Below are positions 2,395 to 20,101 of a stretch of 27,323 nucleotides of DNA, one piece after another. Origin of the DNA: a virus; IMG/VR virus record IMGVR_UViG_3300046675_000146, positions 1 to 27,323 of that record; one strand, 5' to 3'. The notes under the pieces were generated by a model that worked only from the letters and a program-made list of their open reading frames with translations, was not told the DNA's origin and searched no databases. The translations under genes were made by a program, and so were the position numbers. Positions within the stretch are counted from its first letter, which is position 1, and every line of letters begins with the position of its first letter.

Positions 2395-2712
2395 ATGAAG
2401 AAACTTTGGGGGACACTCGCCGCGCTTACACTCCTGACGGGATGCGCCGCAACCCCTAACCCGGCGCCATCACCCACACCGGATGACAGCATCTTCCTTT
2501 CCCAGTACCGGGAACGGTTCCCAGGCGGCACGGACGCCGGCGGCATCCGGATCGGCAAAAGCATCTGCGACGACTACCGGGCCGGTACCACGTTCGCCGG
2601 GGAAGTCGCGTACATCATGGCCCAAAACTCGGCCATCACCGCAGCCAACGCCGGCTTCCTCATCGGCGCCTCGACTGCGACGTACTGCCCGGAGTTCAAC
2701 AACCGGCACTAA
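2395..2712 (+). CDS. DUF732-like lipoprotein, likely lysogenic-conversion (moron) gene
   Basis: A 105-residue secreted lipoprotein. Residues 1-17 are a type II signal peptide: two Lys, a hydrophobic stretch, and the lipobox LTGC with the lipidated Cys17. A short Pro/Thr/Ser linker follows (residues 19-30). The rest fits the small actinobacterial DUF732 domain, with two cysteines (58 and 98) in the contexts SICDDY and YCPEF that could form a disulphide. It would sit on the outer face of the host membrane. It has its own leaderless promoter and its own terminators, unlike the genes around it. This structure suggests expression from the prophage, for example superinfection exclusion or another change of the host surface. 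That role is inference. Confidence 0.75.
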   Translation: MKKLWGTLAALTLLTGCAATPNPAPSPTPDDSIFLSQYRERFPGGTDAGGIRIGKSICDDYRAGTTFAGEVAYIMAQNSAITAANAGFLIGASTATYCPEFNNRH

Positions 2713-2732: not shown

Positions 2733-2758
2733 GAGGCCCCCGCCGCCACGGGGGCCTC
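2733..2758 (+). terminator. strong hairpin after the lipoprotein gene
   Basis: GAGGCCCCCG and CGGGGGCCTC form a perfect 10-bp stem around a 6-nt loop, 20 bases after the stop codon. There is no T-run directly after it, so it may act with the next hairpin as a double terminator or protect the 3' end. Confidence 0.55.
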
Positions 2759-2776
2759 ACTCGTTCCACCCCTTCT

Positions 2777-2804
2777 AGCCTCACGAACCCGTGGGGCTTT
2801 TTTT
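2777..2804 (+). terminator. intrinsic terminator closing the lipoprotein cassette
   Basis: AGCCTCACG and CGTGGGGCT pair over 9 bp (one T-G wobble) with a 4-nt loop, followed by seven Ts (2798-2804). This is a textbook Rho-independent terminator on the forward strand. It lies between neck and tail tube genes, so full-length late transcription would have to read through it or restart. Confidence 0.8.
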
Positions 2805-2838
2805 GTACCCAAAATCAGCCCCGTAGGAGGCACCCCGA

Positions 2839-3540
2839 ATGTCAGTTTCCCTTGCCCGCCGCTTCAAGGTGGACGTATCCACCGACGGCACCACCTGGCT
2901 GCCCTTCAAGGGCATGCAGGACTTCTCCCCCAAGGAGAACTCCACCACCCAGTCCACCGCGACGTACGACAACGCCGGGTACGACTCCTTCGAGAAGACC
3001 CTCACCGCGTGGGAAGTCACCATCAAGGCCAACCGCCCCACCACGGCGGGCGTGTTCGACCCGGGCCAGGAGCTTGTCCGGGCCGCGCAGTTCCAGTTCG
3101 GCGATCAGGCCCGCGTGTACATCCGCTGGTATGACCGCAACGGCGCCGCCGGGGCGAAGTCCGGCCGGGCACTGGTGGACTGGAACCAGTCCAAGACCGG
3201 TGTCGCGGACGTTGAGGAGGTCACCGCGTCCTTCAAGGGCGACGGCGTCCTCTCCGACATCTCCAACCCGTACGCTGCCGCCGCGGTCCCGGTGATCGCC
3301 TCCGCGACCCCGTCCGGTGCCTCCGTGGGCCAGCTCGTCCGGATCACGGGCGCGAACTTCACCGGCACCATCTCCACCACGGGCGTCAAGTTCGGTGCGG
3401 TCAACGCCACGACCTGGGACGTCATCTCCGACTCCCTTATCGAGGCTGTCGTCCCGGCCGGCACCGCTGGTGCGGCGAACATCACGGTCACGAACGCCGC
3501 CGGCGTCTCGACCGCGTTCTCCTATGTCCGGGGTGCGTAG
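2839..3540 (+). CDS. major tail protein with C-terminal IPT/TIG Ig-like domain
   Basis: A 233-residue protein with a very strong AGGAGG ribosome binding site (2825-2830), as expected for an abundant virion protein. Residues 1 to about 145 form the tail tube domain, opening with ARRFKVDVSTDGTTWLPFKGM, a pattern typical of actinophage tube proteins. From about residue 150 to the end there is an added Ig-like domain of the IPT/TIG type, seen in the stretch GQLVRITGANFTG, KFGAVNATTW and the closing strand ANITVTNAAGVST. Such add-on domains decorate the outside of the tube and may bind the cell surface weakly. It comes right before the tail assembly chaperones, the standard order. Confidence 0.85.
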   Translation: MSVSLARRFKVDVSTDGTTWLPFKGMQDFSPKENSTTQSTATYDNAGYDSFEKTLTAWEVTIKANRPTTAGVFDPGQELVRAAQFQFGDQARVYIRWYDRNGAAGAKSGRALVDWNQSKTGVADVEEVTASFKGDGVLSDISNPYAAAAVPVIASATPSGASVGQLVRITGANFTGTISTTGVKFGAVNATTWDVISDSLIEAVVPAGTAGAANITVTNAAGVSTAFSYVRGA

Positions 3541-3547
3541 TTAGTTA

Positions 3548-3637
3548 GCCCCCAAGACCCGGGGGCGGGTTGCGTGAGAGTGGCCCGCCCCCGCACCACC
3601 CCAACTCTCACACCTCACTCTCACAAAGGACTCTCAC
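3548..3637 (+). promoter_or_regulatory. structured leader of the tail chaperone mRNA, possible RNA switch
   Basis: GGGGGCGGG (3561-3569) can pair perfectly with CCCGCCCCC (3584-3592), or its first part with GCCCCC (3548-3553), so two exclusive hairpins are possible. The 14-nt loop of the first contains GTGAGAGT (3574-3581). Its exact complement ACTCTCAC occurs three times downstream, at 3604-3611, 3617-3624 and 3630-3637, with a precise 13-nt period. The third copy lies between the AAAGGA ribosome binding site (3625-3630) and the ATG at 3639. Pairing of the loop with that copy would mask initiation, while pairing with the first would leave it open. The regulatory role is inference from this layout. 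Confidence 0.5.
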
Positions 3638-3638
3638 C

Positions 3639-4097
3639 ATGGCTTTGCGCCCTTACGAAGACATCATCGGCCCCCTGATCATCCCGGTCCGCGGCAAGGA
3701 ATACACCCTGCCCACTATCTCCCTCCAGGACGGGCTGAGGATTCACGCCGCCGCATCCAAAGGCGAAGACCTCTCCCTCAACGAACTCACCGAAATCATC
3801 CTCGGCGACGCGAAAGACGCGATGCTCGCCGACGGCGTCCCCCCATCCGTGGTCGACCGTGCCCTCTGGGCGGGCATCGCCGACTTCCAAGCGGGCCGCG
3901 AAAAGGCAGAGCAGGTCTGGGAGCACGGCGTCCCAAAAGAAGTGCTGGAGGAACTGGCAACAGTCCTTCAGGCCCAGATGACCCCCACGGACGCGGCGAC
4001 TACGACGCCGCCACCGGCCTCTGGGACTGGTACGAACGCCCCGAAGACACCGGCACCCCGGTCGCGTGGGAAGAAATCCTCACCCACCACACCCTGA
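3639..4097 (+). CDS. tail assembly chaperone, short form (G-type)
   Basis: A 152-residue protein read without frameshifting. I chose the ATG at 3639 because it has AAAGGA eight bases upstream and opens with the typical MALRPYEDIIGP. A longer frame from 3570 would run through the leader hairpin. The protein is mainly helical (SLQDGLRIHAAASKG, LNELTEIILGDAKDAML, DRALWAGIADFQAG), as in siphovirus G proteins, which coat the tape measure and recruit tube subunits and are absent from the virion. After the slippery site at codons 99-100 the zero frame runs into a low-complexity Thr/Pro/Ala tail, as expected for a frame not under strong selection. Confidence 0.85.
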   Translation: MALRPYEDIIGPLIIPVRGKEYTLPTISLQDGLRIHAAASKGEDLSLNELTEIILGDAKDAMLADGVPPSVVDRALWAGIADFQAGREKAEQVWEHGVPKEVLEELATVLQAQMTPTDAATTTPPPASGTGTNAPKTPAPRSRGKKSSPTTP

Positions 4098-4258: not shown

Positions 4259-7024
4259 ATGAGCGGGCCCACCACCACCGGCAGCATCGACGCGAAACTC
4301 ACCGTTGACGACTCCGACTTCAAGCGGGGCATGGACGAAGCGAAGGTCCAGGCCAAAGAGGTCGGAGCGCTCGAACCAACGGTCAAGGTCGACGCGAACG
4401 TCGGGTCCGCCATTGCGAAGCTGGACGAAGTTGCCGTCGCGGAGCGCCGCTTGGAAGTGGCGCAGCGGCAGGCGGCGAACTCGGCGTCTACCGCCTACAT
4501 AGCCTACGAACGCTTGAACGCGATGAAGGAAAAGGGGGGCCGCACCGATCTTCAGCTCGCGGCCGCCACGGAGGCATCGGCCCGCGCTGACCGGAACGCG
4601 GAAGCGTCCGAGAAGCGGCTCATCGTCGCCACGGAGGCGCTGAACGCGGTCAAGGCCGAAGCGATCCGCAAAACCCAGGAACAGGCCCTCGCGAACGAGG
4701 AAGAAACCGCTTCCACAAACCGTTCCACGCAGGCGAACAAGCAGCGCATCGCCGGGTGGCAGATCCTGGTCGCACTCGCCCCGGCGCTCCTTGGGCCGGC
4801 GGCGGCGATTACTGGCGCCGCTGTCGGGCTTGGCGCCGCGTTCGGCGTAGCAGGCGTTGCCGGCGTCCTGGCCATCAAGGGCATCAAGGACGAGATGGCG
4901 TCAGGTAGCGCGGCAGGCAATGTCTACGCCGCCGGGCTGTCCACCCTGAAGGGTGATCTTGACTCCCTCGCGGGGACCTCCGCGAACGCGATGCTGTTCT
5001 CATTCAACAAATCTGTTGGCGACATCAACCAGGCCATGCCGTTCCTAACCACCATGGTCGGGACCGCGTCCGCAGCCCTCGGCACCATGGGGAACACCGC
5101 CCTGCGCGGGGTCCTGAACGGGCTCCAGACCATGAACCCGCTCCTGCAGGCCGGTGAGGCCGAACTGTCCAAGTTTGTGACTTGGCTGTTCAGCTTCAAC
5201 GGAACGAACGGGTTCACCGAGTTCATCAACTACTCCATCGACAACCTGCCCTCCGTGATGCACCTGATTGAGAATCTGGTCATCACGGCGGGGCGGATCC
5301 TGTCAGCTTTTGCCCCGCTCGGGCCGGTCGTCATTGGTGTTCTTAATGGCATCACGGATGTACTGAATGGTTTCCCGTTGCCGGTCCTCGCCGGGATCGT
5401 CACTGCCGGAACCCTGATCGGGCCCGCCTTGCGGCTGGCGTTCGCCCCCGGCGTGTCGGCCCTCATCGTCTCCGTCGGTGAGGCGATGGGCTTCGCCGGG
5501 GTCATGGCGAACCTCGCAGTCCCCGTCGTTGGCATCCTGACCGCGGCCCTCGCCGGCGTTGCCGTCATGTCCGTCACCTCGGCGATGTCAACGAACGCCC
5601 AGGCTGACGCGACCAGGAGCGCGACCGAAGCAGCCCAGAACTATGCGACGGCGTTGCAGCAGGACAACGACGCTATCGGCGAGAACGTCCGCCGCGTGGC
5701 GGCCAAGGCCTTGCAGGACTCCGGCGCACTTGCCGCAGCCAAGACGCTCGGCATCGAAATGGGCACCGTCACCGACGCCGCGACAGGCAACAGCGCCGCC
5801 ATGGCTAAGGTCCAAGGCATCATGACCGCCGTGTCTGGCGCCTGGGGTGACGCTGTGGCGTCCGGCCGGAAGATCCCGGGGGTGCTGCAGGATCAGTTCA
5901 ACGCCATGCAGGTCCTGTACCCGGCGCTGGGTTTGCAGTCGCAGGCTCTCGGTGACGCGAAGGTCAAACAGGATGAACTCGCGGCAGCGTCGCGAGGGCA
6001 AAACACGGCCACGGCGCAGCTCGCGGCGTCCTACGGGACCACCGTCGCAGGGCTCCAGTCCGCACAGGCAGCCGAGGAAAAGACGGGCCAGTCCACCGCT
6101 GACACGACGCTCAAGATGCAGTTGCAGAACGACGCGGCTGGCTTGCTGAAGATGACGCTCGATGGCCTGAACGGCAAGGCAATCTCCGCCGCGCAGGCGC
6201 AGAACGCGTTCGATTCGTCACTGGCAAACATGGGCACCCATGTCGACAAAGTCGGCAAGCAGATTACATTCACCACGGCCAACATCGGGGACATGTCCGC
6301 GGCATCTGTCGCCTTGCGGGGCCAGCTCAACGGGCAGGTCTCCAACCTCATGCAGGTCGTGGAGGCCAATGGCGGTCTGGCGAACTCGACGGGCAAGGCC
6401 CGCGAGCAGATGGTTACCATGCGCCAGCAGATCATCGACAACGCGGTCGCCCACGGGGTCGACAAGGATGCCGTCACGGCGTACATCGACAAGCTCATGG
6501 CCGTCCCGGCATCCGTCCCGCCGACGAAACTTGACGTGGACAATGCCGCGGCGAACGCCAAGATCGCGTACACGAAGTTCCTGCTCGACTCCCTGCGGAG
6601 CAAGACAATTTTCGTGGACGTGCAACGCTCCGATTCGGTGAATACCGGTTTGGGTGACGCGAAGGGCTCCGACAAGGTCACCGCGCACGCGACGGGCGGG
6701 CGGATCAACTATCTGGCCTCCGGCGGCGTCCCGGACTTCAAGCCGGTCGGCACGGACACAGTCCCGGCGATGCTCACCCCGGACGAGTTCGTCATGAAGC
6801 GCGCCTCGGCGTCGTCCATCGGGTACGACACCCTGGACTACATGAACCGGACCGGGCAACTCCCGCCCACCGGGCAAGCCCAGCAGGGCGGGCCGGTCAC
6901 GGTGAACCTGATCCTGGACGGCAAGATCATCGACACCCGCATCGTGGACCTCGCCGCAGGGGTCGCCGACCAGCGCATCCACGCCGCCGACACCAGTGTG
7001 CAGTACCAACGGAGGGGACGCTAA
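4259..7024 (+). CDS. tape measure protein
   Basis: By far the longest gene in the window (921 residues), in the standard place after the chaperones. Residues about 70-150 are strongly helical and charged, likely coiled coil. Hydrophobic blocks lie at about 165-210, 340-390 and 405-440 (for example VGLGAAFGVAGVAGVLAIKG) and fit membrane-inserting segments used during DNA injection. The long Ala/Gln/Asn-rich helical middle sets tail length in this family. The C-terminus has the common actinophage pattern ATGGRINYLASGGVPDF followed by DEFVMKRASA. No lytic domain is visible. No clear Shine-Dalgarno is seen next to the ATG. The stop is immediately followed by the next ATG. Confidence 0.92.
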   Translation: MSGPTTTGSIDAKLTVDDSDFKRGMDEAKVQAKEVGALEPTVKVDANVGSAIAKLDEVAVAERRLEVAQRQAANSASTAYIAYERLNAMKEKGGRTDLQLAAATEASARADRNAEASEKRLIVATEALNAVKAEAIRKTQEQALANEEETASTNRSTQANKQRIAGWQILVALAPALLGPAAAITGAAVGLGAAFGVAGVAGVLAIKGIKDEMASGSAAGNVYAAGLSTLKGDLDSLAGTSANAMLFSFNKSVGDINQAMPFLTTMVGTASAALGTMGNTALRGVLNGLQTMNPLLQAGEAELSKFVTWLFSFNGTNGFTEFINYSIDNLPSVMHLIENLVITAGRILSAFAPLGPVVIGVLNGITDVLNGFPLPVLAGIVTAGTLIGPALRLAFAPGVSALIVSVGEAMGFAGVMANLAVPVVGILTAALAGVAVMSVTSAMSTNAQADATRSATEAAQNYATALQQDNDAIGENVRRVAAKALQDSGALAAAKTLGIEMGTVTDAATGNSAAMAKVQGIMTAVSGAWGDAVASGRKIPGVLQDQFNAMQVLYPALGLQSQALGDAKVKQDELAAASRGQNTATAQLAASYGTTVAGLQSAQAAEEKTGQSTADTTLKMQLQNDAAGLLKMTLDGLNGKAISAAQAQNAFDSSLANMGTHVDKVGKQITFTTANIGDMSAASVALRGQLNGQVSNLMQVVEANGGLANSTGKAREQMVTMRQQIIDNAVAHGVDKDAVTAYIDKLMAVPASVPPTKLDVDNAAANAKIAYTKFLLDSLRSKTIFVDVQRSDSVNTGLGDAKGSDKVTAHATGGRINYLASGGVPDFKPVGTDTVPAMLTPDEFVMKRASASSIGYDTLDYMNRTGQLPPTGQAQQGGPVTVNLILDGKIIDTRIVDLAAGVADQRIHAADTSVQYQRRGR

Positions 7025-19456: not shown

Positions 19457-19652
19457 GCCGCAGCGCCGCGCTACCCGCCGGAACATGTCCACCCAGCCCA
19501 TCCCCCGCGGCATCATGGGCTCCCCGACTGCCGGGCAGCGGATCCGCTACACACCCCTGACCCCGGACGAACTCGCCCACATCATCACCCAGGCCCGCAA
19601 CCAGCGCACCGAAGACGACATCACCGACTACAGCAGGAGGAAAGCATCATGA
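19449..19652 (+). CDS. small basic protein, unknown function
   Basis: A 67-residue protein. The GTG at 19449 overlaps the previous gene by 8 bases; the ATG at 19485 would give 55 residues. It opens with a basic stretch (PQRRATRRN), continues with Pro-rich sequence and ends in a helix (PDELAHIITQARNQRTEDD). Its own 3' end carries the AGGAGG ribosome binding site (19635-19640) for the HNH gene. I do not recognise a family. Overlaps on both sides support it as a real coupled gene. Confidence 0.55.
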   Translation: MSEPQRRATRRNMSTQPIPRGIMGSPTAGQRIRYTPLTPDELAHIITQARNQRTEDDITDYSRRKAS

Positions 19653-20101
19653 GCCCCCGGTTCTGGAGCAAGGTCGACAAGTCCGGGGAGTGCTGGATCT
19701 GGACTGCTGGGAAGTTCGCCGGCGGCTACGGCTGCTACTGGGACGGCAAGAGCCGGAAAGCCCATCGAGTGTCCTACGAGGAACATTTCGGCCCAATTCC
19801 TGAAGGTATGCAGATAGACCACACCTGCCACAACACCTGTTGCGTCAACCCCGCGCACCTGAGAACCGTGACAGGGAAGCAGAACTGTGAGAACGTCCGC
19901 GGCCCGCAGTCGAACGGCACTTCTGGATACCGCGGCGTGACCTGGCATAAGCGAGACAAGCGCTGGCAAGCAGCTGTGACTCACAACTGGGAACGCGTCC
20001 ACCTCGGATATTTCGAGAGCGCAGAGCAAGCCAATGCCGCGGCCGTCGCTAAGCGCCTCGAACTCTTCACCCACAACGACACGGATAGGAACGCAGCATG
20101 A
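19649..20101 (+). CDS. HNH endonuclease with C-terminal AP2-like DNA-binding domain
   Basis: A 150-residue protein with AGGAGG upstream and an ATGA start. Residues about 5-45 (FWSKVDKSGECWIW, HRVSYEEHFGPIP) are the usual lead-in of this family. The nuclease core reads IDHTCHNTCCVNPAHL: D57-H58, N67 and H70 form the HNH site, and cysteines 60, 64 and 65 lie close by. Residues about 90-135 (SGYRGVTWHKRDKRWQAAVT, LGYFESAEQANAA) form an AP2-like DNA-binding domain. This combination is typical of free-standing homing-type endonucleases that spread among phages. It may be a mobile insertion in the early operon, although it keeps tight overlaps with its neighbours. Confidence 0.85.
   Translation: MSPRFWSKVDKSGECWIWTAGKFAGGYGCYWDGKSRKAHRVSYEEHFGPIPEGMQIDHTCHNTCCVNPAHLRTVTGKQNCENVRGPQSNGTSGYRGVTWHKRDKRWQAAVTHNWERVHLGYFESAEQANAAAVAKRLELFTHNDTDRNAA

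Follow-up and report, generated by a model that had tools for sequence, protein, structure and literature searches.

The mRNA leader of a phage tail assembly chaperone (TAC) gene carries a hairpin whose loop is complementary to short words repeated just before the start codon. As predicted from sequence, the layout is that of a canonical H-type pseudoknot whose 3′ strand can be any of one to four alternatives, and the comparison of relatives identifies a conserved design with changing sequence, best described as a cis-acting RNA of the TAC leader. Its likeliest role would be translational attenuation of TAC: from a structure drawn by comparison we infer, at a probability of about 55%, that the pseudoknot, with its reiterated partners for the second stem (S2), holds TAC translation below that of the major tail protein.

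The stretch of DNA analysed, hereafter the window, is a 27,323-base virus record in IMG/VR. It belongs to a siphophage with an integrase, in which head–tail genes are followed by the major tail protein gene, the TAC gene and a large ORF (4259-7024) in tape-measure position. The major tail protein gene, upstream of the element, lies on the plus strand at 2839-3540 (phrog_3884, E 4e-29; C-terminal TIG domain, PF01833), and the first frame of TAC occupies 3639-4097 on the same strand (phrog_3860, E 5e-14; DUF7426, PF24201). Many relatives of the window's TAC or DNA are found in IMG/VR. Among cultured phages no DNA or TAC-protein match to the window was detected, and scans of genome contigs for its relatives returned none. 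The weaker matches of the major tail protein among cultured phages are phages of actinobacteria, and the element-bearing group is a large set of uncultured phages, probably with this host phylum. Elsewhere in the window, a small DUF732 protein with a lipoprotein-like N-terminus is encoded within the structural operon (2395-2712, plus strand) as a candidate cargo gene, with a terminator-like hairpin and T-tract after it (2777-2798), and an ORF at 19649-20101 (plus strand) with an HNH_3 match and a weak AP2-domain match is likely a homing endonuclease.

In the window, the first stem (S1) is a GC hairpin at 3560-3593, present in the minimum free energy fold of the leader, and all its parts lie on the plus strand. 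Its arms (3560-3571 and 3582-3593) pair over 12 bp, including two G·U pairs, and covary in relatives. Linker L1 (3572-3573, 2 nt) precedes the 5′ strand of S2, GTGAGAGT, at 3574-3581, and the 3′ arm of S1 starts directly after it. Linker L3 to the first copy (3594-3603) is C/A-rich and without G; the whole stretch 3594-3624 is devoid of G. The complement ACTCTCAC is found at 3604-3611 (copy 1, upstream), 3617-3624 (copy 2, abutting the Shine-Dalgarno) and 3630-3637 (copy 3, between Shine-Dalgarno and ATG), with successive periods of 13 and 13. The Shine-Dalgarno (SD), AAAGGA, can be read at 3625-3630, 8 nt from the ATG at 3639; copy 3 starts on its final A and ends one base 5′ of the ATG. Immediately before the stem lies an unpaired ACC (3557-3559), which 31 of 33 leaders share at the corresponding position.

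The first-pass annotation, made from the letters of the window, had described the loop word, its three exact complements and their 13-nt period, all of which are confirmed: the four are the sole exact occurrences on both strands of the whole 27 kb. It had also described two mutually exclusive hairpins. Both can be drawn in the window (about −13.5 vs −30.1 kcal/mol), but the weaker one, which lies upstream, is unconserved in relatives. The folding energy of the window leader is unremarkable on its own (z −0.71). None of 3000 dinucleotide shuffles of this leader gave a stem of ≥9 bp with even one copy complementary to the loop, and seven other natural leaders yielded 0 or 1 success in the same test. 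Loop–copy complementarity inside so long a stem greatly exceeds what chance would produce.

The design was followed in 33 distinct TAC leaders from IMG/VR, reaching down to ~37-50% protein identity and mostly fetched through TAC protein similarity, blind to the leader. Each of the 33 possesses the hairpin and a loop word, with between one and four copies complementary to it. Covariation in related phages, proposed at the outset as a check, was measured on this set: the stem covaries and loop types are matched by their own copies. At S1 pairs p1-p9, 153 of 153 pairs are standard (17 distinct stems), against a mean of 115 and a maximum of 139 for shuffled arms, and two or three Watson–Crick types occur at seven of nine outer aligned pairs. 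Counted on the alignment, both sides change in seven of eight tested pairs, this count being limited to the outer eight because MAFFT misplaces one gap in the 3′ arm. The S1 covariation value of 0.504, compared with 0.102 ± 0.035 after shuffling, is reached in 0/500 shuffles, and slid controls remain at or below 0.167. Departures from Watson–Crick pairing in S1 are G·U only, with zero A·C, which is the pattern expected for the sense RNA strand.

The loop words are GTGAGAGT in 16 leaders, GTGAGTG in 16 and GTGAGGGT in a single one (L153), and each type is accompanied by copies of its own complement (16/16, 16/16 and 1/1, respectively). The GTGAGGGT leader contains a single exact complement plus a second copy pairing via G·U, and decayed copies, such as CACTCGC and CGCTCAC, likewise retain pairing through G·U. 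A scan for GTGAGNG...CNCTCACAAAGGA gave no additional loop variant with a hairpin. On the TAC tree, six loop-type switches are needed, at least four of them forced by well-supported branches for the GTGAGAGT type; because leader and TAC could recombine as a unit, these four to six switches are counted as at least two independent coordinated changes. In close relatives, leader identity is 88-99%, as against 64-82% for the genes on either side when third positions are compared at conserved codons. These relatives also show almost no synonymous variation in TAC codons 1-8 (3639-3662 in the window), which suggests that the initiation region is constrained.

Matched changes in loop and copies could also be produced at the DNA level if one inverted and several direct repeats were operator sites of a DNA-binding regulator, since one protein reading all copies would make them covary, and the regular 13-bp spacing of the three window copies has the look of such sites. 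This reading is very improbable: the stem around the loop copy covaries too, with sense-strand G·U and no A·C, L1 and L2 are fixed, the order is always hairpin then copies and always on the TAC strand, no further exact site exists in the window, and copy spacing varies among leaders. A phage-wide repeat or regulon was rejected as well, with one site in the window and one per locus.

The geometry is fixed across the leaders. An H-type pseudoknot is defined by pairing of the S1 loop with a downstream strand, an L1 of 1-3 nt, an L2 of 0-1 nt allowing coaxial stacking, and an L3 that spans S1. Such loop pairing can be drawn in all 33 leaders, alongside S1 covariation and matched loop and copy variants. 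With G·U counted, the layout runs as 11-14 bp of S1, 2 nt, a 7-8 nt S2 strand (consensus GTGAG[A/T/G]G(T)), 0 nt and the S1 return strand, followed by a G-poor linker and the copies. L1 is 2 nt in 32/33 leaders (1 nt in L157) and L2 is 0 nt in 33/33, short enough for coaxial stacking. L3 to at least one copy is 7-45 nt in most leaders; the sole copies of L150 and L157 leave L3 of 5 and 4 nt over an S1 of 11-12 bp, which is tight for a pseudoknot. The loop–copy helices amount to about −9 to −13 kcal/mol, loop costs excluded. When 685 kb of family loci (both strands) were scanned for this geometry without any sequence requirement, 33 hits were returned, all of them this element on the TAC strand, at most one per locus and nothing else; a looser pseudoknot scan covering every locus fetched produced a handful of unrelated background hits.

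The first-pass annotation had emphasized the copy between RBS and ATG, which is present in the window and in 15/33 leaders but missing from 18/33. A copy 5′ of the SD is found, direct or near-direct, in 33/33 leaders, at 0-1 nt from the SD in 29/33 (the exceptions are L011 and L182 with 3 nt, L158 with 5 and L157 with 7). Thus, the universal partner is the SD-abutting copy, not the pre-ATG copy. Spacing between copies is variable among leaders. Since S2 leaves the SD itself uncovered in most leaders, any blockage would be steric.

A copy directly 5′ of the SD, universal and not over it, would also fit activation of translation, by which pairing keeps the SD region open or recruits the 30S subunit, and the region downstream is nearly G-free and unstructured. 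There is a precedent in the repZ/repA leaders of IncIα/IncB plasmids, in which a word shortly before the SD is the pairing partner of a hairpin loop and the pseudoknot activates repZ. In those plasmids the loop has just one partner word, and control involves an antisense RNA and translational coupling, whereas the loop in the TAC leaders has between one and four partners and an antisense gene is not in evidence. Folding of the window leader predicts no strong alternative structure concealing the SD, so there would be little to open, and the optional copies that lie between SD and ATG would obstruct initiation, not assist it; activation is therefore judged unlikely.

The gene served by the element is indicated by insertions. 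A NUMOD4-HNH endonuclease gene (5335-5856 in L018) lies between the major tail gene and the element in L010/L018, an antisense HNH gene (3351-3890, minus strand) does so in L157, and other sequence separates the two in L013 and L153. Because the element stays with TAC despite genes inserted in two lineages, it belongs to the TAC leader. The claim of a cis-acting RNA element in this leader is in this way borne out by compensatory change, fixed geometry and persistence beside TAC past insertions. In L156, an HTH_3 gene (2743-3081, minus strand) is inserted inside the element, leaving the hairpin and a decayed first copy on the tail side and the SD-abutting copy on the TAC side. The gap between the major tail gene and TAC looks like a mobile-gene hot spot, as at the T4 gene 32 pseudoknot with its neighbour segG.

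The same insertions bear on the idea that the structure protects the 3′ end of the major tail mRNA or promotes recoding at the end of that gene. The sizes of S1 and L1 resemble those of known frameshift pseudoknots, and the stem starts 5-20 nt past the major tail stop codon in many leaders. With whole genes intervening in L010/L018 and L157, other sequence in L013 and L153, and the element remaining with TAC, such a role has hardly any likelihood, and the insertions in L010/L018 and L157 led to rejection of a signal for frameshifting or read-through in the major tail gene.

A transcriptional role would place a terminator or attenuator hairpin, or a C-rich, G-free Rho-loading site, between the two genes, and the pseudoknot would adjust how much transcription continues past the major tail gene into TAC. 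In cluster O mycobacteriophages, a terminator-like stem-loop is found right after the major tail gene, with a T-rich tail and no pseudoknot partner described (PMC4351075). Plain GC hairpins occupy the same gap in cultured Microbacterium phages and in L258-261, and the stretch 3594-3624 is without G. The terminator view is weakened because a U-tract, which mycobacterial polymerase needs according to work cited in PMC4351075, is missing after the stem in the window and in nearly all relatives; the stem is followed by CACCACCCC. The terminator scan made no call at the element, and an intrinsic terminator was not retained as a candidate. L010/L018 have a separate terminator-like site, a hairpin plus T-run, ahead of the element, and the SD-anchored copies point to translation. 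A transcriptional role is accordingly considered a poor prospect.

The element has a bounded distribution. In the distant TAC relatives L159-161 and L258-261 the corresponding site is occupied by a hairpin whose loop lacks complementarity, and in several cultured phages the hairpin is plain or the gap is absent altogether. The pseudoknot is thus a lineage trait built on a widespread hairpin after the tail gene. Keeping the gene while losing complementarity, the outcome that would speak against loop–copy pairing, is confined to these distant relatives and to the split in L156, and the 33 leaders keep it. The element is absent from the distant TACs of Keanu, Galactica, GMA1, Dorito and Adora, and from phages with a related major tail gene (Eastland, Mbo4, pMLP1, Blett, Milani, Htur, DelaGarza, Kurnik and Parvaparticeps). 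Distant TACs without a pseudoknot and the split in L156 indicate that it is not essential for TAC as such. In L259-L261, ATGAGC occurs twice ahead of TAC, which starts there with TTG. The pre-TAC gap of the Arthrobacter phages Galaxy, Brynnie, Jamun and Vulpecula (L244, L247, L250 and L251) contains a candidate pseudoknot of another kind, with a 15-bp stem, a GGGGGCC loop and GGCCCCC downstream, in near-identical sequences.

The mechanism proposed for attenuation relies on competition. S2 (7-8 bp) would form with any of the one to four tandem copies. Pairing of the loop with the SD-abutting copy, or with a pre-ATG copy, would place a coaxial S1–S2 stack against the RBS and slow 30S loading, and pairing with an upstream copy would leave the RBS freer. 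Competing copies would then give a basal, self-limiting rate of TAC translation, under that of the abundant major tail protein encoded upstream. We infer from the layout that in vivo S2 forms and impedes 30S loading, with the copies in competition and a low TAC:tube ratio as the goal; because the loop can pair with any copy just before the RBS, the element probably sets the amount of chaperone relative to the tail tube protein. It is tempting to go further and see a multi-state RNA device, whose loop exchanges among copies upstream of, against and behind the SD, and whose copy number and spacing are an evolvable dial of the TAC:tube ratio; this extension is tentative.

Pseudoknots in mRNA leaders are already known, and what is unusual here is the reiteration of the S2 partners. 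The closest phage precedent for a pseudoknot with repeats at the RBS is T4 gene 32, whose 5′ pseudoknot precedes an unstructured region containing UUAAA repeats and the RBS; repression requires the pseudoknot and this region alike (PMC535899). The T4/RB69 gene 32 operator and the TAC leader are alike as phage mRNA leaders with a pseudoknot 5′ of poorly structured repeats that include the RBS (PMC535899), and homing endonuclease genes adjoin both, segG in T4 and HNH genes here. By this analogy, a protein ligand is possible, and the same pseudoknot might be a translational operator to which a phage protein (e.g. TAC or the major tail protein) binds, spreading over the RBS region with its repeats or blocking it, much as T4 gp32 does with the mRNA that encodes it. 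G-less repeats would favour single-stranded protein sites. Sequence and host are unrelated to those of T4/RB69, the gene is a tail chaperone for which no binding protein or RNA-binding partner is known, and the domain search of TAC (DUF7426) gave no known RNA-binding domain. Above all, the repeats complement the loop as alternative S2 strands and change with it, which pure protein sites need not do. An operator of this kind is thus rather doubtful as the explanation.

Another comparison is offered by the SAS/ESAS repeats of cluster K mycobacteriophages, a 13-bp GGGATAGGAGCCC consensus with many copies per genome (PMC3203893). These are also short conserved repeats, with inverted repeats, before actinophage start codons, and a role in initiation is suspected (PMC3203893). 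They are spread over non-structural genes and contain the SD, unlike the TAC element, which is single in each genome, placed only before TAC and marked by loop–copy pairing; word and copy number both differ from SAS/ESAS. No Rfam family matched above the gathering score, a permissive search giving weak unrelated families far below it, and no description of the element was found in the literature searched, in line with the initial remark that no described element of this shape was known in this place.

The low amount of TAC relative to tube protein in siphophages is usually discussed in terms of the G/GT frameshift. A pseudoknot at the TAC RBS would add control at initiation, and the natural variation from one to four partners is a ready-made series for relating partner number and position to translation.
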